Assembly (NCBI GenBank): GCA_009599575.1
Contig: VWND01000002.1
Span: forward strand, 868,001 to 932,000
Length of the DNA: 64,000 nucleotides
DNA from: Blumeriella jaapii
Taxonomy: Eukaryota > Ascomycota > Leotiomycetes > Helotiales > Drepanopezizaceae
Reading direction: 5' to 3'
Below are positions 6,313 to 64,000 of the stretch, piece after piece. Each line of letters opens with the position of its first letter. The stretch's first letter is position 1. Under the pieces are notes generated by a model. It made no database searches and was not told the DNA's origin. It saw nothing but the letters and a program-made list of their open reading frames with translations. Made by a program: the position numbers and the translations under genes.

Positions 6313-8438
6313 TCAGGGAGCAGCGGATGGTGGTGGCGCCTGCTCTTCGGCAGTTTTGCCCTCCAACGGTAACTCGGCCTCACCCTCCTTCGAAATTTGA
6401 GTCCCCATCAACGCCTCAATGTTTTTCTTGATGGCCGAGTCCAGATCCAACTTAGGTTCCGGATCCTTCTTCTCATCGGTAGCCTTGGCGGTAGCAACGG
6501 GTTTTGAAGCGTTCGCGCTCGATCCCCCTGTCTTGGCAGCTTCCTTCTACAAAATTGTGAGCATTGTGGATAGACAAGTGAGAATATGAGAGTCTCGTTG
6601 ATTGATCCCGAGATTGTGAAAAGAGGATGAGTTTCTCAACTTACTCTAGCTTTTTTACGCTCCTTGTCTCTCGCCTTGTCTGCTGCCTTCTTGGCCTTGG
6701 CCTCTTCCTCGGCTTGTCGAGAAGCTTGCGTTCCACCATACTTATTACGCCACTCCTCCTCCTTCTTATCGTCAATGCGTGTGAACAGATATGCAGCCTT
6801 ACCGATCTTGTGGCCGCTTGGGAGAGCACCTGGAGACCACTTGTCGGGGATCGAAAGCAGAGGAGCGTTGAGCTGCTCAGTGATGGATATCGCGGTTGAC
6901 GGCATGAAGGGAGATGAGATAGAGGCGAGGAGGTATGCAAGGTTTAGAGCAAATCCAATAATTGCGTGAGTTCGTGCTGGGCTGTTGGTCAGGTTCGCGT
7001 TATCGAGACGGCCGGCAAGAATGAGGTTGCCCTTTCCGGAAATCTCCATGAACTTCTTCAAACCAGCGCGCAGGCGTACAGCTTCCATGTCGGCGATGTA
7101 TTCGGCAAGAAGAGCATTAACCTCAGCGATGAAAGCAGGGAAGTCGAAGGAGTCGTCCTTGTAGGTTGGAGAAAATTCGGGAATAGTCCCATCAAGCTTC
7201 GCGTTGACGAACTTGACCACTCGGTTGACAAAATTACCAACATTTGCAAGTAGTTCGCTATTGTTACCGGCAATAAATGCATTCCACTCGAATTGAGTAT
7301 CCCCAGTTTCAGGTCGATTCGCAATCAGATAATATCTCCAGACAGAAGGTGGGATGCCAGTCTCCTTCGCACCATCACCAAATACACCAATACCTCTGGA
7401 CTTGGAGAACTTTCCTTGCTCGTAATTCAGGTACTCAGTGACAGAAATAGTGTGCAGCTTAGTCCACTTGTCCTTGGTTCCAAGTTGGGAACCTGGGAAG
7501 ATGACCGTATGGAAGGGAACGTTGTCTTTGCCCATGAACTGGAAGAGCTTAACTTGCTCCGGGTTGCGCCACCAAAGCTCCCAGTCCTTCGTGTAGTTGG
7601 CAGTGATCGAAGGGTAACCTATGCAGGCATCGAACCAGACGTACAAAACCTTCTTTTCGTATCCAGGCAATGGTACCGGTGTACCCCAGCTCAAATCGCG
7701 TGTGATACTCCGACCTTCCAGTCCCTTATCCAACCATGACTTTGTAATCGCAATGCCGTTGGATGACCATCCACCTGCCACGCTTGATTGTGCAAAGAAC
7801 CCCTCGATATCTGCTTGTACTTTATCCAGGCGCAAGAAGATGTGGGTTGTATCCTTGGCCACAGGAGTCGTACCATCCACCTTGCACCGAGGGTTTATGA
7901 GCTCGAGCGCATCCAGCAGACTGCCGCAGGCATCGCACTGATCACCGCGCGCGTCGTTGTACTGGCATTTGGGACAGGTGCCCTCGACGAATCGGTCAGC
8001 AAGGAAAGATTGGTGGTGTTCGCAATATGGTTGTAGGGTTGTTCGTTCCTCCAAGTAGCCGTTCTTGTGTAGCTTCAAGAAGATGTCTTGCGCAATGGCC
8101 GTCTGCTGCTCAGTCGTGGTTCTACCAAAGTAATCGAATCCGATATCGAACCAGTCATAGATCTCCTTGTGCTTCGTGTGGAATTCGTCGCAAAGTTCTT
8201 TGGGGGTTTGTCCGGTCTCACGAGCTCTTGCTTCGGTCGCTGTTCCGTACTCGTCTGTTCCACAGATGAAGAGCGTAGGCCTGTCGCGCAATTTGCTGTA
8301 TCTCGAAAAAACGTCGGCGGAAAGAACGCTGCCAATGACATTTCCAAGGTGAGGGATGTTGTTGACGTAAGGAAGCGCGCTGGTGATCAGAATATTGTTC
8401 TTGCCCTCCTGGGGCAAGATGATATTCGTGGTCGCCAT
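6313..8438 (-). CDS. MES1: methionyl-tRNA synthetase, cytosolic
   Basis: Class I aminoacyl-tRNA synthetase charging tRNA-Met for initiation and elongation. Two exons, 8438-6645 and 6546-6313, encode 675 residues. The HIGH-type motif is HLGN at residues 30-33 and the KMSKS loop is KFSKS at 343-347. A zinc-binding knob holds CPKC (155-158) and CDAC (168-171). The anticodon-binding domain follows, then a Lys/Ala-rich C-terminal extension that runs into the short last exon. The frame stays open upstream, but MATTNIILPQ is taken as the start because it begins just before the catalytic fold and no targeting sequence is apparent. No organellar presequence is visible, which fits the cytosolic form. 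Confidence 0.95.
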
Positions 8439-9427
8439 TTGTAGTTTGTAGAGTTTGGGGGGAGAAGTGAGTTGAGGGTTGAGGGGCACTGGACGATTTA
8501 TCTGGTGGGGTTGAAGTTTTGACTCATACACGCATCGAATTTCAGCCTCACAGGCGAGGCTGAGAAGCGGGAAGCCAATCATCTGCAAAGATGACCTTTC
8601 GATACATTGTCAACAAGTCTATAGCAGTTTTGAAAATACCAGAAATAACAAGACACAGATTCCTGGCTTTTAGTATATACTAAGAGGTCCACAGCTTTGT
8701 GTTGCCAAATCCCAAATTCGATCCTGCCACACATGGATGCCAAGCTCGCTTGCAATCAATTGCTACAGCACAGTATCTGTAGGTATGCACTGTAGCTTCA
8801 CAACTCGTAGCTCCAATATCTAGACTTCAGCATCGATATTCCTGTCAAATCGTTGCAGACACACATCTTGATAGCGTCAATAGGGGACAGAAATTCAGCT
8901 GCCAAGTGAAAGCAATTTATCACTTTTTTATGGAAGTAAACAGCTCTTTATAAAAAGTCTTTCATTCACTTCGCATCGCATAAAAAACACGAGCGGATTG
9001 TGAGCCTACGGAGCATATCGATCGTAGCCTTTTCGGGAGTCAAGATAAGATGCATCATTGAAAGGATTAACGGACAGTGCTTCTCTAATTTGGCAAGACT
9101 TTCAACTCCGCGACCGAGAAATTTTGACATTCGAAAGCTCTATGTAACTGGTGCTAGAGTAAATCGAACGAGCATTCTTGCAGGTAAAATCGAGACTCTT
9201 GCCTATGGTAAGTATCAATCCACACGCTGTTCTCCTAACTTCTCTCAACAATCAACTCACTTACGCCGGATGCCAGGAGTCCAGCAGTTCTTGTTCACGT
9301 GATCCTCGCTTCTAAAAATCGCAAGTCGCCCTGTCGACCTCACCTCACCTCACCTCACCACACCTCACTACGCCTCACCACATCACACTCCCAATCCCGC
9401 CATCGAATACTGCCCCTCGCTTTGGAA
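8439..9427. other. intergenic region between divergent MES1 and LTO1 genes
   Basis: About 1 kb between divergent starts. No gene was recognised. The LTO1-proximal part (about 9339-9380) is a CCTCA-rich pyrimidine tract, a typical fungal leader or promoter feature. A GTAAGT-like donor near 9210 could belong to a 5' UTR intron of LTO1, but I could not fix its acceptor. Confidence 0.5.
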
Positions 9428-10789: not shown

Positions 10790-13700
10790 TTAATTAAACA
10801 CCTTCCTGACACTCGAGAAGAGAGAGCTGATGGCCCCTTTGGACTTCTCCTTCTCACGCTCCATCTCCCTCTCCTTCTCACGTCTGTGTCGGTGTCGGTG
10901 CACTCTCTCCTTGCTTCTCGTTGCCTCGCCATCTCGAACATCCTCGACACCCTGCTCCTCTATCCTCACCTTTCTCGGCTTTCTATGTCTTTCAGAACCG
11001 CTGCCCTGAGAAGACTTCCCCTCGCTTGGCTCCAGGATCTTCTCTGCAGCTGCAGCTTCTTCCTCTCTTCTCCGTCTGCGCTCCCGACGTCGCGCTCTCC
11101 TTTCCTCATCCTCTTTTTCCTGCAGTCTCTGTACCTCCAAATCCCGCTGTCTTAGCGCCTCTTCCGCGGCCTCAGCCCTAGCAAGCAGAATGGCTTTTTC
11201 CGACTCCTTCCGCACTCGCCGAGCTTCCTTCTCTTCTTCAATTTTACGCTTCTCCCTACTAGCTTCGCTCTCCTCTTTTCCCCTGCGATGGGAGCGGGAG
11301 TGGTGGCTCGTGCTATCTCGTCCCGATGGCTTCGATCTCTCATGATCCAGTGAGAAACGAGGACGATCGATGATGGGCGCCTGGAGTTTTTCCTCTTTGT
11401 AATGCGGCTTCTCAGACGCAAAGAATGTTGGCTTGACAACGCTGATCCCTTTCAGGTCTATCAATTTGCGGCTTTCGCTGTCGGCTGCGCTGCTACCTTT
11501 ACTGCTGCTGTACCTTCTCGACGTGGAAATGCGTCTTGGGACTGCTGGAATAGATTTATCTGCTGCGGAGCTACTGGGTGCAGTGGTTTCAGAGGGAACC
11601 GACTTCGTTAATTCAGCCTCAGCTTCTCTAGCTTTGGCGCGCTTTTCTTCTTTCCGCTTCTCGTGGGCAGCCTGCTCTTCGGGAGTCCGCTCGCTGCGGT
11701 GCTTATGCGAGCTCATACTTCCAGCACTTACCCCACTATCACGGCGGCTTGGCTTGGCTGATCTGGAGGACGTCTTGGGCGATGACTCACTTTCTCGGCG
11801 CCTATGGCGAGTGCGTTCTTCGCGAGGAGCATCTTACTGGTACTGCTGTGATGTCCCGAGCGCGAGTGTCGTGAAGACCGGTGTTTGCGCTTCTCTTTAT
11901 CCAGTGTAGCGGCATCGCCAGGACTTGGTTCTTCGGCAACTTCTGGAAGCTGTTCAGGCTCCTTCACGATCATGTTTTCTGTCCCAGGCTTGTCGTCAGA
12001 GAGAACTTTGGCTGCGACCGCTCCAGCGGCAATGGCGGCAGCTGCCCCAGCAGCAACTGGAAGTGCGTCTTTCACGACATCACTCGGTTCCTCAGCGATT
12101 TCATTTGCAGGGGCAGATTCATCCACCGAAGGCTTTGAGTCTTTTGACTCTTCGACAGTAGGCTCTGGTTCAGGCTGGGAGTCCTTGGTTTCTGCAATAA
12201 TTCCTAAGGGAGCTTCATTTTCGTGTTCGGCCTACAAAATAATTTAGTAAATCAAGCAAACAGTGATTGGTTTCAATTGAATTTTACCTCCTTGGGCTCC
12301 TCAACGACTTCAGCAGGGCTCTTAGTCTCTGGTTCCGTCTAAAGAAATTTAGTCAGTGAAGATTTTTAGAGGTTGAGTTGCGAATCGTACATCCTTGACC
12401 TCTTCGGCAGCGGCAAGAGGACTCACAGCCTCTGGGTTGGCCTTACAGACGATTAGCTACGGCTCGATGGAGTAAATCAGGATCGATAAAGCTTACGTCT
12501 TTGATTTCATCGACAGCTGATGAGGTTTCGTCCGCTGGAGGAGCCGCTTCTTTTTTAGCTTCTTCGACAGCTGGTGGAGCTTCGTCCGCTGCAGGAGCCG
12601 CTTCTTTTTCAGCTTCTTCGACAGCTGGTGGAGCTTCGTCCGCTGGAGGAGCCGCTTCTTCTTTGGCTTCTTCGACAGCTGGTGGAGCTTCGTCCGCTGC
12701 AGGAGCCGCGTCTTCTTTGGCTTCCTCGACATCTGATGAGGTCCCGTCCGCGGCAGGAGCCGTTTCTTCTTTAGCTTCTTCGACAGCTTCTTCGACAGCT
12801 TCCTCGACAGCTTCCTCGACAGCTTCTTCGACAGCTAATGAGGAATCGTCCGCTACAGGAGCCGCTTCTTCTTTGACTTCCTCGATAGCTGATGGATTTT
12901 CATCCGCTGCAGGAGCCACGTCTTCTTTGGCTTCCTCGACAGCTGATGAGGTCCCGTCCGCGGCAGGAGCCGCTTCTTCTTTAGCTTCTTCTTTAGCTTC
13001 TTCGACAGCTTCCTCGACAGCTTCCTCGACAGCTTCCTCGACAGCTTCCTCGACAGCTTCCTCGACAGCTTCTTCGACAGCTTCTTCGACAGCTAATGAG
13101 GAATCGTCCGCTACAGGAGCCGCGTCTTCTTTGGCTTCCTCGATAGCTGGTGGAGCTTCATCCGCTGCAGGAGCCGCTTCTTCTTTAGCTTCTTCGACAG
13201 CTGATGGGGTTTCGTCCGCTGCGGAAGCCTCTTCCTCTTTGACTTCCTCGCTTGGTGGGGAAACATCGTCGGAAGCTGGACTTTCTTCGCTAACCACATC
13301 AACCGGGGCAATTTCAGCCTCGGGACTCCGAGAATCCTCGGCTTCCGCGGTAACTTCGACCGTGGCAGGCTCACTATCGGCTGCTGGTACTCGCTCAGGA
13401 GCAGCCGCGGCTTCCTCGCTCGCGCCGGCTTCCACAGGGGCATCGCCCGATGCGGATGATTCGGGCTCTTCCGATGGACTCTCAGCTGGTACTGGCTCGC
13501 TTGTAGCTTCAACTGCATCATCTAAACTTGGACTGGTCTCGGTTTCTGGGGTGGCAGCCGCATCGCCGGCATCATCGGTGGACTCTACCTTAACCTCATC
13601 ATCAGCAGAGCTACCCTTCGCCTCGGTTGATTCCAGACCAGCTGCGCTATCGGAGGCCGGATCCGAGGCTTCCTGGACAGGTTCGGGTGCCTCGCTGACA

Positions 13701-16700
13701 ACTGGGTCATCACTGGTCTCGGCTTCGGCGACAGGGGTTTCCTCAACCACTTCGCTGGGAGCGACCGTTTCAGCACCGCCTGATGCTGGTTCTGGGCTAG
13801 TATCAACTACAGTCGAGTCCTCGGCTGGACTTGAATCTACTTCGGCCTATGGTCTGTCAAAACCCGTACATCTAGCGAAATTGAATTCCGGAGGGTAAAT
13901 TTTTCACTTACAACAACATCTGGCTCAGCGTCCGGTGCCTCCGTAATGGGTGATGGCTCATCGTCTTTCTTCTCATCCTCTGGAGGGCTAGCTCGCTCCA
14001 CAACCGATTCTTCTGGTTTGGTCTCGTCGGCCTGGGCAATGTTAGCGTTGATTCTTAGGAACACAACACCGTCGGATTCGTACTGGAGTTTCTGTTTCAT
14101 CGGCACTCGACTGCTGATTCTTCTCAGAGGCAGCGGCTTCGACCTCCTCTCTGCCGTCTTTTGAAACAGGCCCCGTGTCGGTGGATTCGGCAGTTGTCTC
14201 ATCAACCTTGATCATTTTAGGCTTAATTTTTCTCACAAATAGATAGGATGGGTAACAAAGGAGAAAGGGTACAGTAGTTAGACTACATGTGAAAGTGCAC
14301 AGCGTTGGGTACGATATGTATGGTAGTGCTGTAAAGTACAATTGACCTGGGAAATCATCACTTACCACCTCAACCGGAGCGGGCTCTGCTTTCTCCTCGA
14401 CGATCTGGGCCTCTTCTTCCTCTTGGGGCTGTTCAAAGGGCGCTAGTTGCTCCTCCTCGGGCTTGGTTTCATTGATCTGAAAAATGTCAATCATTCGCAT
14501 CATGTGAGGACTACGTTGTTTATCGCACCATTTGAGCAGGAGCAGACGTTTCTTCCTTGTCGGCGACCTGGGCCTCTTCTTCCTCTTTAGGGTCTTCTGA
14601 AGAACCTGACTGGTCTTCAATTGGTACAGACTTCTCAACCTAATTTGGTCAGCCATGTCCCTCTACAAATTGCTTTCGAATCCCACCTCGTCAACAGTGG
14701 AGGACTTTTCCTCTTCCTCGACAACTGGAATTTCAGCCTCCTCTTCCTTCGTACCTTCAGAGGCTGCTGGTTGTTCATCTTTGGAGTTGTCAACCTAAAC
14801 AAGTTAATTTTTTCCATCACCTCTCCTTCAGACTATATGCTTACCTCTTCTGCAGGTACTGCAGCGGCTTCATTCTCGACAACAGGGGCAACTTCCTCTG
14901 ACTTATCCTCAGCTACGACGGGCTGTTCCTCTCCGGGCTTCGAGTCCTTGGCCTAATGGAATTAGTCAAACTTCCCCTGTTGTAAAGGGTGTAATGTAAG
15001 CTTACAGGCTCCGCAGGCGAGGTTTCACTCTCGGTCATGGTCGTTTCCTCTGCTTCAGAAGCGGGCGCTGTTCCCTCACTGACATCATGTGCCGCTTCTG
15101 GTTCACTGGCTGGCTCAAGGGCTGTTTTATCTCCACCTTCTTCCTCGCCCTCGCCCTTATCCTCGATTTCGGGGGCAGATACAGCTTCCTCCACGGATGC
15201 GTCCTCGGTAGAAGGAGGTGGGACAACTTCATCGACAGCTTCTGGAGATTCTTCCTCAGTGCTCTCTTGTACTGGTTCGGAATCCTGTGATTCTTCCAAA
15301 TTTGCAGGTGTTGGAGTGTCGCGTTCTGTTGAAGTGGCTTCTAACTCGGCGAGTGCGGAATCTTCCTTCTCCATTTCTTCCTCGGTCTTGTAAGAATGTT
15401 AGCTTGCATGTATTTCGACATGGTAAAGATGTTGTAGATTCGGGGGCCAAGTGGGTCTCAAAGCAAAAGTTTGGCACTTTCCACATCTCGGTGTTTGTAT
15501 TGGGTGCCAAAGATTGGAATTAGTACTTACAGCTGGAACAGCTATCTCGTCGGCCTCGGGCTCAGCCCCAGTTTCAGTTGACTGTGGTGTCTCCTCGGTC
15601 TACCGAAGTCAATATTACGCTCCATACGAGATTTGGCTGCTTTGACCAATCTAAATACCAAATCGTAAGAAAGTTATGACGGAAGACATACCTTGGCAGC
15701 AGTCTCTTCTTCAATCGGTTTAGGATCGTCTTCTGCCTGCGATTAAGTCAGCTGCATTCATACGAACAAGCCAACCATGGTGGTGAAGGCTGACGTCAAG
15801 ACTATGAAATTTGACAAGTTCGATCCGACAGTGGACACTCACAACCTCAGCAGTGGCCTCAGGGGTTTCTTCAACCTGTGGCTTGTTAGGATCGAATACT
15901 TTCATATTGGTTGGATCGATGTATGTGCGAGGTGCAGGTGATTGCCGTAAATAGAATTGCACCCCGGGCGACCCCTCTGACTTGTAGTACAGCTGCAATG
16001 GAATCCTGCACTTACAGCTGTAGCAGTCTCCTCAACCGACTCAGTTTCAGGATTCTCAACAGCCTGCTCCTTCGTTACTCATCAAAGCTCCTTCGGCTGC
16101 GCTTCAATTCGTCTTGAACCGAGACGAGCGGAAAAATGACTTACTGGTTTTTCATCTGGAACGACCTCTACCACAGGATCAGAGGCGGGCTCAGCAGCTT
16201 GCTCGCTAGTGCCAGAATTTTCGGCAATCTGGAAGCCATCGGTCAGCTCAACACGCATTCAACCTGTCGATGAGCACGAAGCCTTGGACGACTTACTGGG
16301 GCTGCGGTTGCCTCTTCAGCAGCGAGCTCAGAAGCAGACTCAGCAACTGGATCCTCGCTAGCGGCCTCTGGTGTCGTAGGATCCTAAAATTACGTTAGCC
16401 GTTACGATCAATGGTCTATCCTCGAAAGCCGAAATCTTCATATCTTACTGGTTCTGGTTCTGACTTTTCCTTTCCAGCAACGGGCTCAGGAGCAGGCTCA
16501 GCGACTGGTTCAGTCACCGGCTCACTAGCAACTTCTGGAGTATCAACAGCCTATGATCTACGTTAGCTCGCCCAAGGCAATGCACCAGGTCAACGAGAGC
16601 ATAATGATGTGTAGCTTACTGGCTCTGGTTCTGAACTGGCTTCTTCAATGGCTTTTTCATCAGCTGACTCTTGGCTAGCTGGCTCGTTGACTGTGTCTGG

Positions 16701-19700
16701 AGTCTCGACCACCTTAAAGAATTTATTAGCTTCGTGGTCACTCAACCTTGTCTTAATGCTCGAGAAAAATACGGTGACTTACCTGCTCTGTCTCGGGATC
16801 TTTAGCAGTTGTCTCCTCTGGAGTATCACCGGCTGCGGTCTCTTCTTCTGTCTGTCTCTGGTCAGACAACTGCCCAAGTTTTGTCATCGAGCCACGAAAT
16901 GGCAAGGCTGGATACTTACGGCAGACGCTGGTTCTGGAGCTGGAGCTGCTGGCTCTTCCGGTGCAGGGGCGGAAGATTCTTCTTCCTTCTGAGAAAGTTG
17001 TCAGTAATCATGCAGCACGTATGTTTATGGACCGAATTCATGCTCCAGAGAAATTGGATATGACTTACAGCTGGTTCTGTACCCGAGGCTTCTGTATCTT
17101 CAACCACAGGAGTGGGAGCCTCCTCTTGTTTCGGCTCCTCTACTTTCGATTCCTCTGCTTTCGATTCCTCTGCTTTCGATTCCTCTGCTTTCGATTCCTC
17201 TGCTTTCGATTCCTCTGCTTTCGATTCCTCTGCTTTCGATTCCTCTGCTTTCGATTCCTCTGCTTTCTGCTCCATTTTAGCGTTGTCGCAAATAAAACTT
17301 CATATCCACATACCACTGGCTCAGGGTCCGAAGCAGGTGCTTCTTCGGCGACAACGGGAGTTTTTTCCTCGTTCTGCTTGAAGTCAACCTCGATTTTCAA
17401 ATTCAGAGAGCATGAGATTTTCTCTCTACTTACAGCCACCTCAGGTGCAGATTCTAGCGTAGAAGCCTCCTCCTGTGTGGCAGGAGTGGAGGGTTCTTCG
17501 GTCTGTATAATATCAGTGCTGTAGCCAAAATTTATTGAGCGCAAGATAAGCGACAAGAACGTTGTCACGACATCACCCAAAGTGTGTGTATCTCAGCATT
17601 GTTTATAAGCGAGAACTTACCACCGAGGTTTCTTCAGTAGGTGCGGGTGTCTCATCGACCTGTACGAATCAGCCGTCAAAGACTCCCCAAGAAAGATAAT
17701 TCATCCAGCACAAGAGACATTCAAAACAAGACATACGGCTGGCTCCGGACTCGCCTCTTTGGCAGTAGGTGCTGAAGCCTCTGGTTCCTAATGCAAGAGT
17801 TAGCAAGAGTGCGATACATGCATCAAACGCCAGTAGAGCTGTCATGTTCTAACAGCAAACCAAATTGATATTCAAAAAATTTCAGGCTACAATCTTGCTT
17901 TGCAGAGACGATACTGAATCTGGAGGACTTACAGCTGGTGCGAGAGTGGTTTCTTCCACTGGAGCCGGCGTGTCTTCCGCCTGCAAGAAATATGTGGTTA
18001 GCTCGTGCTGGGATAGTTGAATATGCTGAATAGTCATATATTGGGGATAAGTTACTCCGACTTCTGAGACAGCTTCTGCGGCTGCTGGTGCCTCTTCTAC
18101 CTATTCGAGAGTAAGCATAAATTCCATCATTTGCAAGCATATCCATGCTCTGATTGAATCTGACATCGTCAAGATGTGAGGAACTTACTACTGGCACGGG
18201 CTCGGAACTATTGTCCTCGGCCACTGAAGTATCTTCTGTCTATTTATTATCAGTCAGAAATTGTTATACTCATAGTAAGTCTGATGCTCTGCATGCATCA
18301 CACCAAAGGACAGGACTTGCTCGGCACTGCAAAATTGGCACAATCTGAACGGAGCAGAAGATGGGAGGCATACCGTCGGCTCCGCAACTTTTTCCTCCAC
18401 AGCTGTAGCGGGTGCATCTTCGACCTAGTCATACATGATCAGCCAAAGTCACGTGGTAAATCATTTATTTATAGTGTGATTTGTCCTTAAATAAAGACAA
18501 GATGATAGATGGATTCATCTGAAAACTTTCACCTCGTCGAATTGAAATAATTCGGCACGCATATAAATACATACCGCTGACTCGAGGCTTTTCTCCTCCA
18601 CGGCTGGAGTTGGGCTTTCTGGTTCTGCTGCCTGGAAGAAATTAATTATGTGGATCCGTAGAAATATTGTGTACTCACTAAAGGCTCAGGACTCGTTTCC
18701 TCGAGAGCAGCTGGACTTTCTTCCTTTACGGAGTTAGGTGTAGTTGATTTGCGGAGCCTCAAGACTTACTACAGGAGCTGACACCTCCTCGCTAGAGGAC
18801 GGCTCGTCCGATTTTGGTGCTAATTCAGCTTCGGGCACTGCTTCGCTTTCCACGGGAGCCTCTTCTTTTGACTCGACAACAGGCTCTGATGCAGACTCTG
18901 GTGTTTTATCCGATTCTGGGGATCCCTCTGCAGATGATTCGTTCTCAGGTGGGGGCTCGACAGCTACTTCCGGGTCCGGTACTGGGTCTGAAGATAGTTG
19001 ACTGTTGGCGGGAGGACCAGACTCGCTCTCTCCGGGGTTATCAGATGGCGATGAGTCGTCCGTTGGTGGCGGTGTAGGTTCTCCGGCAGGAGAATCTGCC
19101 ACCACAGGCACAACTAATACGCCCTTCCCTCCTTTACTCTTGCCCTTTCCTGCCTTCTGATTCTTCTTATCCTTCTTGTTCTTACCACCCTTCTCCTGCT
19201 TCTCGAAAACTTCCTCCTCGGCCTCCTTTTCTGCCACAGGCTCAGGATCCCAATGGGTGTTTTGCTTCTTTGCTTTCTTTCCCTTCTTACCAGACTTGGA
19301 AGCTTTTTCCTCCAACTTCTCAACTTCATTGGTCTCCTCTTGCTTCTCGGGTGCTCCCTCATCGACTTCCTTTCGTACCACAGGCTCAGGATCCAAGATC
19401 GGGTCTTGCTTCTTTCCCTTCTTTCCCTTTTTGCCAGACTTGGAAGCTTTTTCCTCGACCTTCCCGGCTTGAATTGTCTCCTCCAGTTCTTTTTCTGCTT
19501 GTTTTGCTTTCTTTTCTTGCTTCTTGTCCTTCTTTGCGTCCTTCTTCGACTGTTTGCTGTTCTTCCCTTTCACTTTAAACTCGGCAGCCGGTGGAGCGAC
19601 GTCGTCAATAGACTCAACATCACCATCTAAATTCTGTTCTTGACATTCGTCATGGGTTGGAGGATCAGGCGCAGTTGGCGGCACACTAGAGGAATCTTCG

Positions 19701-20254
19701 AGTGCTTCCGAAGGGATGCTGGCTTGCTCCTCAATGGAAGGTCCAGCGCCACCATTATCTTCCTTCAATCCCCCACAATCCATTGTATCCTGTGCCTCGT
19801 GGTCGAGATGTGAGGCAAAGCTATCGTCGTAATGGTCGCCCTCTCTCACCGAACCATTATCTACGTCGGCTGGAAAAGTAGATCAGTATTTTCCCAAGCT
19901 CACATGTTAAGATAACCGAGCCAGTTCAAAGATAATTATCCTTGATGAAAGAAAAGTCCGAAAAATAACTTTACGAAAGCCCTAATACAGGGATCACCCG
20001 AGTCACTACAAGGCAACACAACCCAACATTTACTTACCGTCTAATTGATCCTCGAATACACTCCCTTCCTCGTCCGAGCCCGAAAATGTCGTCGGGTGGC
20101 CGTACCTCATATGTTGCGGCGGGTCAAATCTCGAGGTCTGTAACTCGAATCTCTGGGTTTGGACTTCGTATTGATCCGTCTGGGTAGAAAATGGATCATA
20201 AGTAAACTGGCTCCGGTAGGGACAAAAAGAAATGGGTTCTGGATCGTCCTCCAT
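10790..20254 (-). CDS. giant acidic repeat protein with a 31-exon symmetric micro-exon array
   Basis: I read one gene of 34 exons encoding about 2,228 residues; function unknown. Exon 1 is 20254-20038, exon 2 is 19869-18770, exons 3-33 form the array described separately, and exon 34 is 12231-10790. The N-terminus is Asp/Gln/Phe-rich. Exon 2 is acidic, then Lys-rich with two copies of a KASKSGKKGKK module. The centre is a Glu/Ala/Pro/Ser/Val-rich region. The tail has an Ala-rich hydrophobic stretch (PVAAGAAAAIAAGAVAAK), Arg/Ser-rich segments, a long charged coiled coil, and ends SSLFSSVRKVFN. In exon 34 the frame breaks once near 11832; one added base restores it. Very large repeat-rich fungal proteins include the Woronin-body tether leashin (involucrin-repeat type), but I see no motif that proves homology. 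Confidence 0.75.
12497..13220 (-). repeat. nested coding repeats in exon 31
   Basis: The 3' half of the 1,350-nt exon 31 is built from a unit of about 60 nt (20 residues) of the form EEAKEEAAPAADEAPPAV. It is interrupted by two blocks of a 12-nt unit encoding EEAV, at about 12775-12835 and 12990-13095. Copies differ by a few substitutions, for example DAPPA versus DGTSS, so both unit duplication and drift are visible. The composition is near-zero hydrophobic and strongly acidic, predicting a disordered extended chain. Its low-complexity codon pattern also creates a long spurious antisense open frame. Confidence 0.85.
17147..17266 (-). repeat. 15-bp coding minisatellite (KAEES x8)
   Basis: Exon 13 of the giant gene starts with eight almost identical 15-nt units encoding KAEES, followed by diverged KVEEP and KQEEA units. 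Near-identity at the nucleotide level indicates recent slippage or unequal exchange. Copy number is likely to vary between strains. Confidence 0.9.
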
Positions 20255-29328: not shown

Positions 29329-32300
29329 TTATGTACTGACCGGTCGGGGGTTGGTCACCGTCTCCTGCTTGATTTGCTGTGCCTCTTCCGTAGTAACCGC
29401 CGCTGGCCTTTGCGAAGTCGGGCTCTGACGCTCGACGTGCGCGGTTTCGCTTGGCTTCGACGCGCTGGCTCCATTCGAGAGGCTCGCACTGTTGTTAGGT
29501 GGTGCAGGCGAGCCGGAAGGAGGTGGTAGCACGGAGCTGTTTGAATCAGACCTCGCAAGACCGTTCATCGGATTCATAGAAGGTCTGGGAATCGAAGGAC
29601 AACCCGGTCGGTTTGGATTGTGTGCATGGAACGTTGGCCTCGTGATGGCGGGAGTGGATCTCTCTGTACCAGTCGATTTGGGAAGCGATGGAGCCGATGC
29701 GTTTGCCTGTGTTCCGCCGTGATTCGTCGGGGTTTGGTGAGCTGACTTTGCTTGTGAGCGCTGTTCGTTCTGCCCAGGAGGTCCCACTGGTGGAAGAAGG
29801 CCGATTTTGTTGAGCATGTTTCTCAGGACTTCCACGATGGCAACCTCGTCCTGATGACCGGGTGTATCGTTTGGAACTTGGCCCAGAACTTTCCGCACTG
29901 AATTGTCAAGAATCTCTTGTCCATTGGGCTTCGTGGATAATTGAGTGGACAAAATCTTCTTGAAAGATTCAATAGCCTTCAATACCCGTTCGTCGACAGG
30001 ATCCGGGGTAGGAGGTGCAGCAGGAGGGGCAGGAGTGCTGATAGTTGGCTGGCTATGTGCAGCTTGTGTCTGATTCTGCGGATGGGCTGGCTGTTGGGCT
30101 GTCTGATAAGGACTAGAGTGCTGTGTTGGTTGCTGGTAGAAGTGCTGTGGCTGCGGCGCGTACGCTTGAGGCTGGGGAGGGTATGGCGCCTGAGCTTGGT
30201 ATTGCGCATGAGGCTGGTATTGCGCATGAGGCTGGTAGTGCGCGTGGGATTGGTATGGATTCGGATGAGCATTGTGCGGGGGAGCAGCTAGTGGAGGTGA
30301 CATCTGCGTGGTAGGTCTCTGTTCGGATGATGATGGGCCTTGAGCGTTGGCTGGAGGCTCATTGGGATCTGTAGGTTTCGGTCCATAGGGAGAACTATAA
30401 GACGTGTTTACTGGAGGTGCCAAGGCCGGAGGAATTGAGGTTGGAATATGGCCCATGTGAGCTTGCGATACTGGAACGTAATGTCCACCCATATACGGCT
30501 GCTGGCCAGGTCGAAAGTTGCGGCTGAGGGGGCATTGGATAGCCTTGCGGGTGTACCATCATGCCCTGAGGAGGATAACCAGGCATCGGAGGTCCGTAAT
30601 ATTGGTTCGGGTAGATCGGTTGCATGCCAGGATGATACTGAGGTTGAGGTGAACCACCCTTCTTCCTTCTCTCTCGTTCGAATTTCTCCAGAGTTGCGCC
30701 CTCTTTAATCGCCCACTTCCACCCCTTCCCCTCACGCTCAACCTTCTCAAACAATTCGTTTTGACCGAGGTTGTGCCGAACACTACTCTGCCACCCCTGA
30801 GTCGCGACTCCTACCACGAAGTAAGGCCATCTCCGTTGGATAGCCCTGTAAAGTTGCGGCAGAGACAAATGCCTGTGCCGATGTGCGGCAAGCACCTCAA
30901 AGATGATTGTGACATAGTTGCAGGTGGGTTTTGCTTTCTGTTCCTCTGTGAGTTCGTCCACGTTGTACTGTGGGGAGGGGGAGCGAGGGGATCTCGGAGG
31001 TTTTGGATCCTTGACTTCCTTGCTCGCACTATCATCGCTGGCCGCCCCTTCGGCCTTTGGTTTTCCGTCTTTGGGTTCCTTGGGCTTTCTCCTGGTGTAT
31101 TTACGCTTCTCTCTGGGCTCCGGCGGGGTGTCTGGGCGTGGATGCTTGCGTGGACGACCAACTTTTCGCTTGATCTCACCTCCATCAGACACACTCTTAC
31201 CAGCAATGCTCGCGGTCTGCGGAGTTGCGGTCTCCGTGTTCACGCACTTCTTGGCCGCTTTGGATTCCTTGGGTTCCTTGAGTTCCTTGGGTTCCTTGGT
31301 TTCTTTGGCACCCTTCTCATCCTTCTTGACCGTCTTTTTGCCAACCTGCGGAGCTTGCTGCGCTGCCTTCTCTTTCTCGGCTGCTTGGGCTGCCAGCCTC
31401 TCTTCCCTCATCTGCCGCTTAGATTTTTCGCCCTTGGGTGGTCGACCTGCTCCACGTCTCTTGACTTGGGGGCTCTTCTTTGGTGGCGTCTGAACATCCT
31501 CCACCTTGACATCATCTTCTTCCACCTCGACGCTGTGCCGGACATCCTCTTCGTAAGCCTCGTATCCTAGCTCTTCCTCGCCATGGCTATCGAATAGGCC
31601 ATCGCGATTGGAGCCTGCCATTTCGTCGTCCTGTTCGTACATCTTGCTCGCTTCATCGCGTCGTGTTGCCCCTTCGTTCTGAACATCTACCTCCTCATTT
31701 TGCTCGTAGTCGTCATCATCTTCGCTATCACTGTTGAGACCGAGGGCAGCTCTCCGCTCATTTGAAAACTCCAAGCTCATCTCTTTTCCGTGCATCGTGT
31801 GAGTCGAGAGACGTGAATAGCCTTCGACACCGGAGCCATCGTCAGAAAGACCGCCTTGTTCGGCTCCTGTTTCGCCAACAGGGATTTCTTCCGGCAGTCT
31901 CCACAGCATTAGAACTGCACCAATCTGTACACGAGCGCCATTCTTGAGGGCAATGACATTGCCTCTGGGATAATGTTCTCCGTCCACGAAGCAACCATTG
32001 ACCCCTTTCACGTGCGCTTCCCAAAGAGATTTATCGAAATTGAATGCAATCAGCAGATGCTCTCGTGAAATGGCCTTCCACGAGCTCAAGTTGTCCTTGT
32101 CGAGGGGGTGGATTAGCAGCGTGGCCAACCGGTGAGGATGTGGCATGAGCCTCTCTACTTCCACCTTTGCAGGTTCCTGGACGTCCAGCAGGTAGTACGA
32201 GTGGGCCATATCGTTGGGTGGGCCGGTGGAATGTCTCCTTAACTGATGCTGCGATGATGAGTCGGACGATCGTGACTTCTTCAGACGCTTTTCTGCTCCG

Positions 32301-33493
32301 CTCGAACATCGCTCTCTCTTTCGCTTCCTCCGTTCGCGGTCAAGCTCGTAAACCTCCTGTTGGTCAAATTCCCTGACGAAGCCCGCGGTATCGCTGACCA
32401 TAGACTTCTTCTGCCTATGTTGCCCCTCGTCGTGAGGGTCAGGCTTCCCCATTGACCGCATGTGAAGTTTTTGTGCAGTGATGTCTCTGCCGATCTTGAG
32501 CGAGTAGGAGTTGAGGTAAAAGTCACCATCCTCGAATTCGATCTTCGCAAAGCCCGTCACCTGTTGATGTTCTTGCTCGACAGCCGGCGGTTCGAATGAT
32601 GAATCGTAGTATTCCCCGTTTGGCACGCCTTGCAATAACATCCCAGATTGAACCGTAGTCATCAGACCCATGTTGCCTAGCCAGTTGGTCTCCGGCACAC
32701 CACCCAGAGGATCTTCTATCATGGGAATGTTCGAATTCTGGGTGGGCATCGCATTCATCAACCCGATTGTCTGGGATGATAGCGCCTGGTGACCATGACT
32801 GCCCGGTCCTCCGACCATGGATCCGGATCCAACAGGAGAACCAATTGGTGCTCCCATCTCAAAGGAGGCTTGCGCTTGGTCTTTGTCCGGCCTGGAGAAA
32901 TCCCGCCCGTCCGTGGTAGCTTGGCCGGTCTGAAGCTGCTGATTCCCTTCCACGTTGTTGCTGAGATCCATGGTGAAATTGTCATAGATGTCGAAATCTA
33001 CCACGGCAGAGGGACGGGCTCTGTTTGCCATCTTAACATCCACCTGGTCCATCCAACCAGTGGTCGACCCCGCGCTTTGCGATTGTCTGTGTCCAAACTC
33101 GACTCCTTTTCCCTTCTCAGTACGTGACAGGCTCGACGCCTGCACTTCCATGACATTCGGCGACGACGCAGTTCTCTCTCCCATGGTGATTTGTTGCGCG
33201 TCGCCAGGTCCATCCTCCATAGAGTCGACAGCGGTGAGGTCGTCATCGGGTCGAGGACAGTCGGTTGCAGGAATCGCGAACGCGGCCGCAGGTGCGACGG
33301 AGGAAGAGGCCGCGTTTGAATTTGAAGTCATCGTTGTCGTTTTCGAAGGTGACAACTCGTTCAAAAGCGGTTCGCGCAGTCCGGGGGAGAAATCGTCGTC
33401 CGTCAGAAGGAAATCGTCGAAGTCCAGAGCGCACTGCTCCCCAGCAGCTCCCCAGGGCCGTTGCGGCCGCTCGGCCCAAAAGGCCTGCTCCAT
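29329..33493 (-). CDS. FHA plus forkhead transcription factor, Fhl1-like
   Basis: Nuclear regulator resembling Fhl1, which controls ribosomal-protein genes in yeast; target genes here are inferred only. The N-terminus is acidic. A divided FHA domain covers about residues 315-535: SLKIGRD and ISREHLLI with VNGCFVDG carry the phosphothreonine-binding Gly-Arg, Ser-Arg and Asn, separated by a roughly 110-residue insert containing an RKRKRER-type nuclear signal. An acidic/Lys-rich linker with AT-hook-like KRKVGRPRKHPR precedes the forkhead domain at about 855-940 (WQSSVRHNLGQ recognition helix). The tail is Pro/Gln-rich. One frame break lies near 30515-30530: either one extra base (1,387 residues) or a 55-nt intron starting GTACAC (1,369 residues). 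Start is MEQAFWAERP. Confidence 0.85.
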
Positions 33494-36056: not shown

Positions 36057-37767
36057 CTACTGACACTGTGCCGCGCCACCTTCGTTCCGAATGATCTTCG
36101 CCACAGCCTGCACCAGACTGATGCCCATCACCACGCATCCAAACGCCACGCACGCGATGGCCGGCCCTGTCTTCCAGCTGCGCGTGCTCAGCTTGAGGTA
36201 GCACAGCGGCGGCAGGATGTAGGCCAGGGCACAGGCGCTCGTGGCACCGATCAGCTCGAAGACGGCGCCCAGGTCGCAGGTGACGAGGCTCAGCGTCATG
36301 GCGCTGACGACGAGCGCGCTCGAGAAGATGATGTGCAGGTTCATGTTGAACGGATCGCCGGGGAACCAGTAGTTGAACATGACCTCGCGGCAGACGAAGG
36401 CCTCGAGGGGCAGGGTGGTGAGCATGTTGAGACCGAAGCAGAGCCGGGCAATGTTCACCATGATGTTGTCACGCGGGAAGTTGTTGAGGACGTTACCTTC
36501 GGTGAGAGAGCCGAAGGTGAGGAAGCCGGCGAGGGCCATGGCGAGGCAGGCTACCATGGAGACGGCGGTGCTGAAGTGTGTCACCCGGGCGAAACGGTCC
36601 ATGGTCGGGGTCTTTAGAGAGCCATAGATAAGGAGGGAGTTGTGATGGCAGACGAAAGCTAGTACGCATGAACGAGATTGTCAAGGGACAACAACAAGGT
36701 GTACGAACCAAAAGAGATGACCCCAATCGCTTGGAAAAACCCAGTGTTGATGGTCAAGAGAGGCGTAGTAAATGTGCCCCTTGATTCTTTCGGAACCCTG
36801 AAGCTCTGCGTGATGACCGTGAGTAGGATCACAATCATGCTGATCAACGCCAACGTGCTCGCTTTGGCCAACTGTTCTCGTCAGTCTCTTTCTCGCCGTC
36901 GGAGGAGGTGATGTCTACCTTGGCGATATCCCGATACAAGCTCAAGGGATAGCTTATGCCCAGGACAAAAATGACAATAGCCGCCCTGCGATTGGTAAGA
37001 AGCCCCAACACTGGTATATCGCCCAACCCTGGAAACACCGCCGCCAGCATGTGCGGAATCGAGTCTCCCACAATGATGCCAAACGCGACCATGCCCCCAA
37101 ACGCGAACGCCCACTGCGCCACGGAAATCGCTATCAACCCGGGCCTGCCAAAGCAATGCTCCACCGTGCCCTGAAAGCTGGCGCTCCCACTCAGCTTGGT
37201 ATTGACGACGATCAAGCCGATGGTCCAGTCGACCGTGATTGTAAGCCCAATGAGCAGTAGGACCCCCGTCAGCAGCCCGGCCTGCCGGAACGCGTATGGC
37301 TGCCCGATGATGCCTGCGCCGATGATCGAGTTCGCCATGTTCATGAACGCAGACCTGAGGCCTGACTTCGGCCGCGCCCGCTCCCTCTCTGCCCATTCGT
37401 GAACATCATCGCTACCCCAAGGGTTTGCTGTCCGCGTCGTCGAGGGCGCCTCGACATCCGTAAGCAGAGGGACGGATCCTTGAGGGCGTGGCCTGCGGAG
37501 CCCGGATAGCGAAGGAGATTCGTGGTCTGGAGAGAGAGCGCCATTCTCATGGAGTTCTGTATCTGGAACTGGTGGCAGGTCGAAGCGCACACGATTTGGG
37601 GTTCGCGGAGTTTGAGGCTCAACTGGAGAGCTTTTGCGACCGGGGTGCACGACTAGGTCTTCGTCCTCAGAGGAATTGCCGGACAGGAGGCCGCGATCTT
37701 CCTCGTTGTTCGGGTCTGCCCGGTTCTCGCTATCCTTGCGGACGACATTGGTTTTGGCCTTGGCCAT
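36057..37767 (-). CDS. Avt-family vacuolar amino-acid transporter
   Basis: Member of the amino acid/auxin permease (SLC38-like) family; yeast Avt proteins move neutral or basic amino acids across the vacuolar membrane by proton coupling. Exons 37767-36919, 36871-36709 and 36658-36057 encode 537 residues. A hydrophilic N-terminal tail of about 135 residues, acidic and Ser/Pro-rich, precedes the first helix. The signature NSIIGAGIIGQPYAF lies in helix 1, followed by about ten more hydrophobic helices. IPVLGLLTNRRAAIV and VCHHNSLLIYGSL (across intron 2) match the Avt2-like branch most closely. Substrate and direction cannot be read from sequence. Confidence 0.9.
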
Positions 37768-38350: not shown

Positions 38351-40091
38351 TCAAATGACAAACGAGAGTAGAACGACGAGTATCGCGGGAAGGAGATTAG
38401 AGATTAACTTTCTCGCGTCGGATTTGTTCGACGGAGTGGCAGTTGCACTGTCTGCTGGTGCGGTAGGAGATGGAGAAGAAGGCGTCTCGTGGCCGTCAAT
38501 TCCAGTCAGGGGAGGTGACGCGGGGATAGTAGGAGTTATGGTCCCAGTTGCCGAAGAAGTCCCTGTTGATTTTGCGTCAGTATTTGTTGTCACGCTGGCT
38601 CTTGTAGTTGTAGATCCAGAGGATAAAGCGGCCATACCAGAAGATGACGATGCAGAAGTAGGAGAGGCTGTAGACCCGGCGGTGTTCTTTTTAGCAAAGC
38701 CTGAATGGTGGTTAGCTAGCAACTATGAAGCTCGGACTTGCCCCGCTCACCGATCCTATTCTTATCTATATCAAACACACTATACACATTCTTCAAAAAA
38801 GTGTCTCCCAAAAGCCAGTTTCCAGGCGTGACAGCTTGACCAAATACATTGCTCGTACAGACCCCATCGACCGCTGGGGACACCCAATCTTTCGGATCAA
38901 CATTGTAGGTAGTGTCGCCAAACGTAAAGGTCAAAAAGTCCGTGGTGGTGCAGGGGATCGTGTATGTAATGTTGTTTGTCGACGAAGCCCCAGGAATCAA
39001 GGCATGAAAAGTCTCTGCATCCTCTGGGGGACAGAAGACGAACGAGGTTCCAGTATCAATGTAAGCCAGCCTTCCCTTGATGTTCGACTGCGTGATCCCA
39101 ACACCAACGTTCCCCATTGGTATAGCCCAATCTCCATGACCTTCGGCCGAGACATCGTTGTAGCTGAAGCTACCCTCGTATTTTGATTTGTTTGGTGCAC
39201 CAAAGTTGATCTCTCCGTCGTTGGGTCCATCCGAGGCTCGATTGATGCTAACGCCAAACACGTTCGATTCCAGGGTCTTGGCAGCAACAAGAGTCTCGGT
39301 AAAGATAGGAAAGGACCCTTTAGCCTGCGACAATCCGAGAATTCCGTCGATAGGGAAGGAGTTGAAGTCGTCTGACACTGTGTCTGCAATGCCTAAGGTC
39401 AGAGCGATTGACATGCCAGCAAAAGAGATAGTATCGTTCCCCAGAATTCCTCCGGCTTGTCCAGAGCCATAGGATATGTTGAAAGTCGTACCACTAGCTT
39501 GAAATGATCTCGAGGACGACGGATCGAAAGTGTTGTGCACTTCGCAGGGTGCCGAGGTACAACTCTTCCCCATAACCCAAGTCGTTGCTGCTCCAGTATC
39601 CAAAAGGAGGTACAGCAACGTCTCGGCCGAGCCCAGGTTTATCTCCATGAAGTAGGAATAATCAGTTCCATCCTGGTCAACGCCAGCACTCATAGTCTGG
39701 GTAGGTGTGACAGCTTTCATAATAGGGTTTGCATTGGCTCGTTCTGCAATTCCATTTCGCTCAGCTTCAATTGGTTGGGCAGGAGTACGCTGATATTTCC
39801 TCGTTAACTGTTGTGCCAACCGCTCTATTTGCACATGGCGGGGCACGTCGTCCTGGCAAAATAGGTTAGCCAGCTTGCAATACGTTCTTGAGATGCCATT
39901 ACTTTTTTCGGTATCCGCTGAACGAGCTTCAAAGTCCTCCCTTCATCCTCGTTAAGCAAATTGGCATCCGTAGAACGCTCCGTTGCACAAGCACCCCCCT
40001 CAACACAACGATAACTCGGGAACCAGGGATAGAATGCTGTCGCCGTCGAAGCCAAAGCGGCAGCTGAGGCCAAACCCTTGTGAATCAACAT
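38351..40091 (-). CDS. GPI-anchored pepsin-like aspartyl protease
   Basis: Secreted and probably wall- or membrane-anchored A1-family protease, CtsD/yapsin-like. Exons 40091-39903, 39852-38751 and 38700-38351 give 546 residues. An N-terminal signal peptide (about residues 1-20, LASAAALASTATA) precedes a propeptide. The catalytic pair is DTGA at 148-151 and DTGT at 329-332, with a flap Tyr in ISYGSG near 191. The last exon supplies a Ser/Thr/Pro-rich stalk and a hydrophobic C-terminal tail (LLPAILVVLLSFVI) typical of GPI signals; Asn or Ser just upstream could be the omega site. All splice joins are in frame; intron 1 has a perfect GGCTAACC branch. Confidence 0.92.
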
Positions 40092-52237: not shown

Positions 52238-54076
52238 ATGAACGGCTTCGGGCTTGCTTCCTGGACGTGTAGGAGGTGTCTGCTGCAGACGAGGCCGGGG
52301 CTAGGGAGGCAAGTGAGGGGATACGCAGCGACGGGTTCGGCGGGCGGAAATGCGTATGGGAATGGCGCGCGACCGAAGAGGAGGGCTCGAATCCTGACGG
52401 CTTCGGCGGTGGGCGGCGTAGGGGCTTCGGTGCTGGCGCTGGGAGACGGCGCGCAGCATGCGTATGAGGCGGTGGAGAGATCGGGACGGGTTGCCAGCAC
52501 GCTCGCGGTGTGTATCAATGAGTGAGTTGTGTTCCTGCGAGAGCGAGACGACTTGCGACGGGGGCTCGGGACGCTGACGAGCGTAGTTACCGGGTCACGC
52601 TGAATCGAAACGAGAAGATAGCGGACGAGGGGGAGAAGAACATTGCGCTGAAGGCGTGCCATCAGCGGTGTGCGGATCGGACCCTGAGGGTTCTGGAGAA
52701 GAATGGGAGTATCTTCATCAAGTTGGGACAGCATCTGGTATGTGGATCTGGCTTTGCTTTGTGGTTGAAGGGCGCTCGCTGATGAGAGGCAGAGTGCTAT
52801 GAACTATCTCTTGCCTATCGAATGGACAGCGACTTTTATACCCCTGCAGGACAAATGTCCAATCTCGTCGATCGAGTCGATAGAAGCCATGTTTGAGAAA
52901 GACACAGGGGAGAGACTGTCCGACTATTTCTCGGAGTTCAACCCGACGCCTATAGGAGCTGCCTCTCTGGCGCAGGTGCATCTGGCGACTGTCAAGGAAA
53001 CAGGACAGAAAGTAGCAGTCAAAGTCCAGCATCCGGCACTGGCCGAGTGGGCGAATCTTGACTTGGCCCTCACACGATTCACCTTCTCGACCCTGAAGCG
53101 ATTTTTCCCTGAATATGATCTTGAATGGCTATCTTCAGAGATGGAGTACTCTCTTCCCCAGGAATTGGATTTCCACCTCGAAGGCCAAAACGCCTTGCGG
53201 ACGAAAGAGTATTTCTCCCACAGGCCTGAGCTCCCACTCGTCATCCCCGACGTCCTTTGGGGCAAGAAACGCATCTTGGTAATGGAGAACGTCTCAGGCC
53301 ATCGCCCGGACGACCTCGACTATCTCGACGCGAACAACATCGACAGGGACGAGGTCTCGGCCGCCCTCGCCCGCATCTTCAACGAGATGATCTTCGGCAC
53401 CAACGCGCCCCTGCACTGCGATCCCCACGGCGGCAACATTGCCATCCGCAAGAACTCCTCCCACCGCGGAGCGAACTTCGACGTCATCCTGTACGATCAC
53501 GGTCTCTACCGTGACATCCCCATGGATCTCCGACGCTCTTACGCCAAATTATGGCTGGCTGTTATTGACGCGGACGAGACGCGCATGCGCAAATACTCGA
53601 AGGAAGTAGCCGGCGTCACCGACGAGCAGTTCCCCCTCTTCGCGTCCGCCATCACGGGACGAGACTACCGCGTGCTAACGCAGGACGTATCGATGGCACG
53701 CTCGGACGAGGAGAAGAAGAGCATCAACGAGGCCCTGGGTGAGGGGATGCTACAGCAGCTCGTAGAGATGCTCGGACAGGTGCCTCGCATCATCCTCCTC
53801 ATCCTCAAAACGAACGACCTGACGAGAAGCCTGGACGAGAACCTGCACACGCGACAGGGACCCGTGCGGAACTTCTTGATCCTGGCACGGTACTGCTCGC
53901 GCACGGTCTTCGAGGAGCAGGTCGAGATGTTGAAGGGGAGGGGAGGTCTGTTCTGGCCTGCGAACTTGTGGGGACTGCTTAGGGCGTGGGCGGATTACTT
54001 TCGGGTCGAGGTGAAGCTGGAGGCATTCGAGGCGTGGTTGGCTGTCAAGAGGGGATGGGGTGTGCTCGCTGGGTAA
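52238..54076 (+). CDS. ABC1/UbiB-family atypical kinase, Mcp2/Cqd2-like, mitochondrial
   Basis: Atypical protein-kinase-like ATPase linked to coenzyme Q and lipid distribution. Exons 52238-52521, 52587-52737 and 52793-54076 encode 572 residues. An Arg-rich N-terminus with RCLLQTRPGLGRQVRGYA reads as a mitochondrial presequence, followed by a probable helix (ILTASAVGGVGASVLAL). Family motifs are IKLGQHL at 139-145, the Ala-rich loop IGAASLAQVH at about 199-208, VAVKVQHP with Lys222, QELDF, CDPHGGN at 354-360 and DHGLYRD near 380. Similarity is best with the Mcp2/YPL109C branch rather than Coq8. The small upstream gene shares its promoter region. Confidence 0.9.
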
Positions 54077-63151: not shown

Positions 63152-64000
63152 GGCGGAAAATGATATGATCAGGTTGGGTGGCTGACTGGCCGAGGGGAGA
63201 GGGGAGGACTTTGGTGAGACGTGTAGTAGGGGACGGGAATATTTCTTTTTTGCGGGGGGGGGGGGGGGGGAGATGGCTTTCATTCTTTTTCTTGACGCTC
63301 TTTACGCGCATGGTTATTATCACCATACCGTTCTTACACTCTTTAAGGTACGCATACCTGTTACATACAAACCCTAGGTCGCTTGGCTTGGAGACCTTTA
63401 CGAACATGTACATACATGTCTATATCATACCGTTCTTTACACTCTTTACGCATACCTGTTACACACAAAACCTAGGTCGCTTGACTTGGAGACCTTTACG
63501 TACATGTACATACATGTCTACATACATACAATACAGTACATCAATCGCAGCACAAACCACTTCTCGCTTTTCGCATCCACACAACGCAACGCATTGTACA
63601 TGCGTACAGTGCAGTAAGTAGAGACATGATCTTTCGAGGCGGCGGAGTGGGAGCAGGGAGCGGGATCTTGCAACGCGAACGGTTCCGACGATGGATGGGG
63701 AATTTCGTCGGTTCTCAGGCACGGATAATAATGCAATTTAGTATCGTCGTACATTACAACTTGTCGTTTGGGAGAGAGAAGAGAAGAGGGAAATGGGTTC
63801 GGTTGGCGAGATACGCTATGGGGCTTTGAGGTGTGCTGTGCTGTGCTGTGCTAGACTGTGCTAGACTGTGCTGTGCTAGACTGGCTGGTTGTGTTTTTTT
63901 TTTTTTTTGGCTCTTCTTCTTCTCTGAATGAATGGGTGGGTGGGTGAGTAGGTGGGTGAGGCTAGCAAGCGGAGAATTGGAGAATTGGAGAATTGGAGAA
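63152..64000. other. repeat-rich trailing region
   Basis: No gene recognised. Holds a 17-G run at 63254-63270, a 102-bp tandem duplication (63327-63529), CTGTGCTAGA repeats at about 63835-63880, a 15-T run at 63894-63908 and short GGAGAATT repeats at the window end. Confidence 0.6.
63327..63529. repeat. tandem duplication, unit about 102 bp
   Basis: Two imperfect copies start at 63327 and 63429. Shared landmarks are ACCGTTCT, ACACTCTTTA, CGCATACCTGTTACA, CCTAGGTCGCTTG and GGAGACCTTTACG. Copies differ by about a dozen changes and small indels, including a GGT-containing insertion in copy one. Confidence 0.85.

Follow-up and report, generated by a model that had tools for sequence, protein, structure and literature searches.

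A long array of symmetric short exons in a predicted gene of Blumeriella jaapii, with a probable origin by serial exon duplication

The genome of the fungus Blumeriella jaapii (assembly GCA_009599575.1; 47.4 Mb in 91 contigs) contains a predicted gene in which 31 consecutive internal exons are all multiples of three nucleotides long and are all flanked by phase-0 introns. The exons lie at 12288-18723 of a 64,000-nucleotide stretch of contig VWND01000002.1 (positions 868,001 to 932,000), referred to here as the window. We think it reasonably probable that this array arose long ago, as a symmetric phase-0 exon was duplicated in tandem again and again, and that its product would be a tether or scaffold with a reach set by exon number. 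The least secure part of this reading is the tether role.

Results

The gene model lies on the minus strand, opening with an ATG at 20254 and closing with a stop codon at 10790-10792. A preliminary description, made from the sequence, had placed the locus at 10790-20254, and that extent is borne out as one large predicted gene, to which the strand is now added. Two splice parses were compared, one frame-blind, using splice signals alone, and one frame-aware, and most introns were common to both. The model has 33 predicted introns, 32 of them phase 0 and bounding the array exons, and one near the start (20037-19870). The last array exon, X31, was added from direct reading of the sequence; its donor is weak and the frame-aware model passed over it. 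The second exon was taken as undivided, which is how the frame-blind parse has it at thresholds of 9 and 10. The frame-aware model had split it with a 20-nt exon and a 60-nt intron, and this split was dropped: the stretch is open and in frame, and the intron scored poorly.

The symmetry first seen in the letters holds in this model, where the length of every array exon (31/31) is 0 mod 3 and every bounding intron (32/32) is phase 0. Exon lengths range from 33 to 1350 nt with a median of 69, and 27 of the 31 fall within the 33-120 nt previously given for most of them. The introns, at 46-159 nt, are unconstrained in length (7, 10 and 15 with remainders of 0, 1 and 2 on division by three). In a leave-one-out codon test, with the model trained on the other exons, frame 0 was best for all 31. 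The frame-blind parse at threshold 10 gave 17 symmetric exons among 25 internal ones (P = 4e-4 at an expectation of 1/3), which taken alone is modest evidence. One of its eight misses (1100 nt) is a genuine exon, not symmetric and lying beyond the array, and the rest reflect an alternative splice site or merged exons. Phase-0 introns have a frequency of about 0.40 in Fusarium core genes (215/534 in F. verticillioides; PMC5677156). At that frequency the probability of 32 phase-0 introns in 32 is 1.8e-13 if introns are independent, so the earlier judgement that chance is negligible under independence stands. The array introns are probably not independent of each other.

Several properties suggest that the predicted introns are real. 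When a strong intron is defined as a donor-branch-acceptor combination above a score threshold, the coding strand of the array has 17 with scores above 12 and the opposite strand one; at thresholds of 11 and 10 the counts are 21 against 2 and 25 against 4. At threshold 12 the array has 2.60 of them per kb, and the remainder of the window 0.25 per kb for each strand. A branch-like motif occurs in every intron (CTRAY in 21, TTRAY in 8, CTHAH in 3); CTRAY, the motif for which a chance rate was determined, appears in 16% of shuffled introns. Mean G+C content is 0.556 in the exons and 0.410 in the introns. Retention would break the frame for 29 of the 32 introns, and the three that keep it translate to peptides of ordinary composition, with a D/E/P/A/S/T/V fraction of 0.32-0.42 compared with 0.88 for the exons.

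Cells might use the array as a regulated series of cassette exons, choosing among symmetric exons to make many isoforms, with that choice maintaining the symmetry. This concerns how the array is used and is compatible with an origin by duplication. Any of the 31 exons could be skipped without a frameshift, some donors are weak (GTAACT, GTGGGA, GTGCGA, GTAAAA), and a glucose-regulated microexon is known in Xlr2 of Trichoderma virens (PMC11121469). The commonest donor, however, is the strong GTAAGT (14/32), alternative splicing affects about 6% of fungal genes (PMC11121469), and duplication by itself already yields symmetry. We regard regulated use of this kind as rather unlikely.

A peptide motif, roughly [AVTI]-[DE]-[DE]-[TSA]-P, recurs at the exon starts. 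Information in the start columns is 4.51, compared with 1.91 (sd 0.27) in sets of shifted cuts, none of which was as high (0/1294); for the end columns it is 2.77 against 1.91, and two of the 1294 shifted sets were as high. It had been stated that nearly all exons begin with a hydrophobic or small residue followed by two acidic ones. The strict form (A/V/T/I, then D/E twice) is found in 13 of 31, so the wording was too sweeping, but the tendency is strong: the first residue is A, V, I or T in 25 exons, and D, E or N fills 47 of the 62 cells at positions 2 and 3 against a null mean of 20.6. The EP(A/V/P) endings ascribed to many exons are fewer than implied, three in strict form and eight if any EP or EPx is allowed. 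Proline is next to last in 8 of 31, with a null mean of 3.6 and a maximum of 11, so some shifted sets exceed it.

Glu-rich codons could in principle create splice-like sites in one phase, which would make the symmetry uninformative about descent. The exon composition is indeed extreme. The fungal acceptor consensus YAG/R (the slash marks the splice site) covers one exon base (PMC5677156), so it leaves the motif at exon positions 2-5 unexplained. Ahead of the 32 introns, the exon ends in A, T or C 21 times and in G 11 times, and the opposite strand is nearly without splice signals. Such an artefact of composition is disfavoured and very improbable. As a final G precedes only 11 of the 32 introns, recurrent creation of introns at AG/G sites is also unlikely.

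The exon peptides are related beyond their shared composition. Alignments covered exons of up to 45 residues (28/31; the three longest were omitted), and similarity among them had a z of 9.4 against residue shuffles and 5.0 against rotations. Without the first five residues of each peptide, z against shuffles was 8.3. Within the series of those 28, exons one to three places apart resemble each other more closely than under permutation of the order (1.35 against 0.65, sd 0.14; p < 1e-4), and this persists within length classes (p 1e-4); past a distance of three the pattern is irregular. Over all 31 exons, neighbours are also close in length (p 0.001), and blocks can be picked out by eye: X2-X8 at 39-57 nt, X14-X17 at 84-102 nt, X23-X28 at 108-123 nt, and X30-X31 at 51 nt each. 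The X23-X26 peptide matched its own genome four times, in each case at the X23-X26 exons themselves. Across 12232-18769, the introns beside an array exon are on the whole longer where the exon is shorter (rho -0.36, p 0.06, 28 exons, not significant), and the standard deviation of unit length has a p of 0.048. Compensation between exon and intron length is suggestive, not significant, and we do not claim it.

The largest exon, X29, carries its 54-bp and 12-bp tandem repeats across 12506-13250, and the borders of the repeat units resemble spliced exon borders of the PPA/VEE kind. These repeats may be fused exons or a parallel intronless expansion. Antisense to X29 there is a 465-aa open frame (12501-13898, plus strand), probably a by-product of X29 codon usage.

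The array encodes 1309 residues with a net charge of -357, of which 32% are D/E, 12% P and 19% A, with one aromatic residue and no Cys. Because of this charge and composition, the product is very probably disordered and extended. The N-terminal part (439 aa) is acidic overall (-46) and includes a Lys-rich block with a charge of +15. A 144-bp direct repeat in the second exon (19213-19483; 1.9 copies, 82% matches) duplicates a Lys-rich KASKSGKKGKK block. The post-array piece has 131 residues. The C-terminal frame (345 aa, charge +26) was modelled from its single sequence (mean pLDDT 66.7, pTM 0.28), and the model was used for helix content alone. The long helix is predicted with a pLDDT of about 96, and the amphipathic tail has a muH of 0.47 (shuffle p 0.04). 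If all pieces belong to one gene, the predicted product has about 2,200 aa. The first exon and the C-terminal frame each matched only themselves in the genome, and the C-terminal frame had no relative among viral contigs. Seven pieces of the gene were scanned, namely three of the 31 array exons (X11, X22 and X29), the first exon, the second exon from 19789 on, the post-array exon and the C-terminal frame, and no Pfam family was found in them at E <= 0.001.

Between the post-array exon and the C-terminal frame, at 11838-11833, the frame breaks with no convincing phase-compatible intron. The break may be an assembly error, a real frameshift, a sign of an intron at 11731-11574, or a boundary between two genes. 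In the last case the locus would be two or more transcripts, for example with the C-terminal frame as a gene of its own (about 11830 to 10790), and the Neurospora leashin locus, split into lah-1 and lah-2, is a precedent (PMC2690989). The sequence is basic and Ser/Arg-rich on either side of the break, though, and a one-base assembly error or the intron at 11731-11574 would also join the two. We doubt that the locus is divided, and the 31-exon array would be unaffected either way.

Table 1. Features of the predicted gene, 5' to 3' along its strand, and of the rest of the window. X1-X30 rest on the frame-aware model, the length and phase table and the start-motif test; further support is named in the last column.
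Feature	Position	Strand	Description	Basis
First exon	20038..20254	-	Start codon and N-terminal segment MEDDPEPISFCPY...	Both splice parses
Second exon	18770..19869	-	1100 nt; 154-residue Lys-rich block in otherwise acidic segment	Both parses
X1	18679..18723	-	45 nt, EESPAALEETSPEPL	
X2	18575..18631	-	57 nt	
X3	18374..18424	-	51 nt, VEDAPATAVEEKVAEPT	
X4	18189..18239	-	51 nt	
X5	18056..18100	-	45 nt	
X6	17933..17980	-	48 nt, AEDTPAPVEETTLAPA	
X7	17737..17787	-	51 nt	
X8	17621..17659	-	39 nt, VDETPAPTEETSV	
X9	17434..17502	-	69 nt	
X10	17314..17373	-	60 nt	
X11	17069..17266	-	198 nt; internal 15-bp tandem repeat (KAEES)	
X12	16920..16988	-	69 nt	
X13	16783..16851	-	69 nt	
X14	16620..16712	-	93 nt; resembles X15	Also peptide alignment
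X15	16449..16550	-	102 nt	Also peptide alignment
X16	16297..16383	-	87 nt	
X17	16145..16228	-	84 nt	
X18	16016..16063	-	48 nt	
X19	15843..15875	-	33 nt, VEETPEATAEV; sole exon of 36 nt or less	
X20	15692..15736	-	45 nt; resembles X6	Also peptide alignment
X21	15531..15599	-	69 nt	
X22	15006..15386	-	381 nt	
X23	14845..14952	-	108 nt	
X24	14687..14794	-	108 nt	
X25	14529..14639	-	111 nt; top-scoring pair with X26	Also peptide alignment
X26	14366..14476	-	111 nt	Also peptide alignment
X27	14084..14206	-	123 nt	
X28	13912..14031	-	120 nt	
X29	12497..13846	-	1350 nt, intronless; 54-bp and 12-bp tandem repeats (VEEAKEEAAPAADEAPPA, VEEA)	
X30	12391..12441	-	51 nt	
X31	12288..12338	-	51 nt, TEPETKSPAEVVEEPKE; weak donor GTAAAA	Direct reading, length/phase table
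Post-array exon	11838..12231	-	Acidic start, hydrophobic Ala/Val segment (DALPVAAGAAAAIAAGAVAAKVL), basic His/Arg/Ser end	Frame-aware model; ends at frame break
C-terminal open frame	10790..11833	-	Predicted 84-residue helix and C-terminal helix with amphipathic tail	Open reading frame, structure prediction
Methionyl-tRNA synthetase	6636-8588			Pfam match
Forkhead/FHA protein	30395-33493			Pfam match
Amino-acid transporter	36844-37767			Pfam match
Aspartyl protease	38716-39846			Pfam match
ABC1 kinase-like protein	52799-54076			Pfam match
PNGase A	61261-62136			Pfam match

Elsewhere in the window there is a 98-bp tandem duplication (63349-63529, 92% matches). A bacterial-code scan found no tRNA in the window, and no Rfam family reached its gathering score there. 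The genome as a whole has at least 16 matches to the HET domain, a family that suggests a place in Pezizomycotina.

Discussion

The exons of the array are cut on a recurring motif, are alike beyond composition and are most alike between near neighbours, which supports the serial duplication proposed in the preliminary description. A symmetric phase-0 exon would have been copied in tandem with its introns, repeatedly, and long enough ago for likeness between the introns to be lost, with local repeat expansion since then inside some exons (X11, X29). With every unit symmetric, unequal exchange, exon loss or skipping would then alter the length of the protein and never its frame. The result would be a long, probably disordered, self-repelling spacer separating an N-terminal part, with its Lys-rich block, from a helical C-terminal part that may serve as an anchor, and the reach of this tether or scaffold would be determined by the number of exons.

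A number of observations weigh against this picture. Among the 32 introns no pair exceeded shuffles: the best score was 22, the mean of the shuffle maxima 23.2, and 36 of 40 shuffles did as well or better, while the mean over intron pairs was matched or exceeded by 4 of 40. Duplication of whole exon-intron units is therefore not directly visible and must be old, and we infer the ancestry of the unit from the exons alone. The preliminary description had proposed aligning exon peptides and introns for common ancestry, and the first half of that comparison came out in favour of it and the second did not. Among the exons, the rotation control (z 5.0) is weaker than residue shuffling, the best pair score, 74, falls inside the range of rotated maxima (46-75), and the exon-end columns are weakly informative. 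X29 shows the same kind of repeat expanding without introns. The introns and their splicing are predicted from the sequence. The join to the C-terminal part is unproven, given the frame break near 11838. The tether role draws on composition and on a helix prediction from one sequence, and taken over its full length the N-terminal part is acidic, not basic.

The same observations bear on whether introns were instead gained serially, each at the same position of the repeat, in a repetitive intronless coding region, through introner-like copies or some other insertion. In favour of this, related repeats run on without an intron through the long X29, with unit borders of the exon-border type, the gene is active in repeat expansion within exons, and introns without common sequence are expected of independent gains. 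Recent copies of a single element, on the other hand, should look alike, and no two introns here do so beyond shuffles. Introner-like elements are highly similar intron copies, and no such similarity appeared in the intron comparison, so an introner-like origin is unsupported. Intron gain would also need 32 separate events, all in phase 0 and mostly at sites without a final G, and it does not predict that neighbours should be similar in length and peptide, unless the repeats had already grown serially. It is an improbable alternative, and serial tandem duplication fits the predicted structure better.

The array had been called a micro-exon array, and trematode micro-exon genes had been named as one analogue. 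Trematode micro-exon genes have serial small symmetric exons of about 36 nt or less and encode secreted proteins. The series of small symmetric exons is a true likeness, but only one of the 31 exons here is that small, so the comparison is weak, the label is too strong, and short-exon array is the better name. Microexons are 'usually <=36' nt (PMC11121469). The Xlr2 microexon of T. virens likewise gives a filamentous fungus a very small exon with a function, but it is a single, unrepeated 20-nt exon, not a multiple of three, that switches a DNA-binding domain (PMC11121469). No fungal exon-duplication array was found among the matches listed in the open-licence literature, in keeping with the earlier statement that no fungal equivalent was known.

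The other analogue named earlier, the PEVK exon array of titin, is apt in form and, by analogy of structure, is the closest we have. Both are long runs of short exons coding for peptide rich in P, E, V, K and A, disordered in titin and probably so here. PEVK_Finder uses a cut-off ratio of 0.54 with A included (PMC6469411), and 29 of the 31 array exons pass it. As in a titin-type array, the exons are of the same phase and multiples of three, and their peptides are related, with neighbours most alike among the 28 aligned. Homologous flanking introns, expected for recent copies alone, were not found among the 32. Exon duplication is also a proposed route by which the PEVK region grew (PMC6469411). 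The differences are that the human region has 113 annotated exons (PMC6469411) and this array 31, that the array is fungal, poorer in Lys and more acidic, judging from composition, with introns of 46-159 nt, and that titin has Ig and Fn3 domains beside its PEVK region, whereas the seven pieces scanned here contain no Pfam family.

Among fungal proteins, leashin (LAH), the Woronin-body tether of Pezizomycotina, has a similar overall design: it is large and very acidic, with distinct N- and C-terminal sequences and a repetitive, poorly conserved middle (PMC2690989). The paper describing it cites one on titin PEVK exons. Predicted LAH proteins have 5,936-7,480 aa, however, compared with about 2,200 aa here, and introns of the Neurospora locus are numbered to at least 10, with no exon array described in the available part of that account (PMC2690989). 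The leashin R1 repeat consensus had no match in this genome, a search made without a positive control that shows nothing by itself. As the size does not fit, identity with leashin was rejected.

By analogy, the array could be a fungal counterpart of the titin spring, in which the reach of a tether is tuned by exon gain and loss in evolution and by skipping in the cell, independently of animals. We consider this further step unlikely at present.

Protein growth by serial exon duplication is usually discussed for animals. Fungal genes tend to have few introns: two Fusarium species have 1.8-1.9 per gene, other fungi 1.5, and the core genes of Fusarium 2.53 (PMC5677156). If the reading favoured here is right, a 33-intron gene with 31 symmetric, related exons would mean that growth by serial exon duplication also takes place in the compact genome of a fungus. 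The protein could become longer or shorter one exon at a time with the frame intact, much like the spring region of titin in muscle. The gene would then offer a small and genetically workable system in which to ask if splicing tunes arrays of this kind or if they are a mere by-product of duplication.

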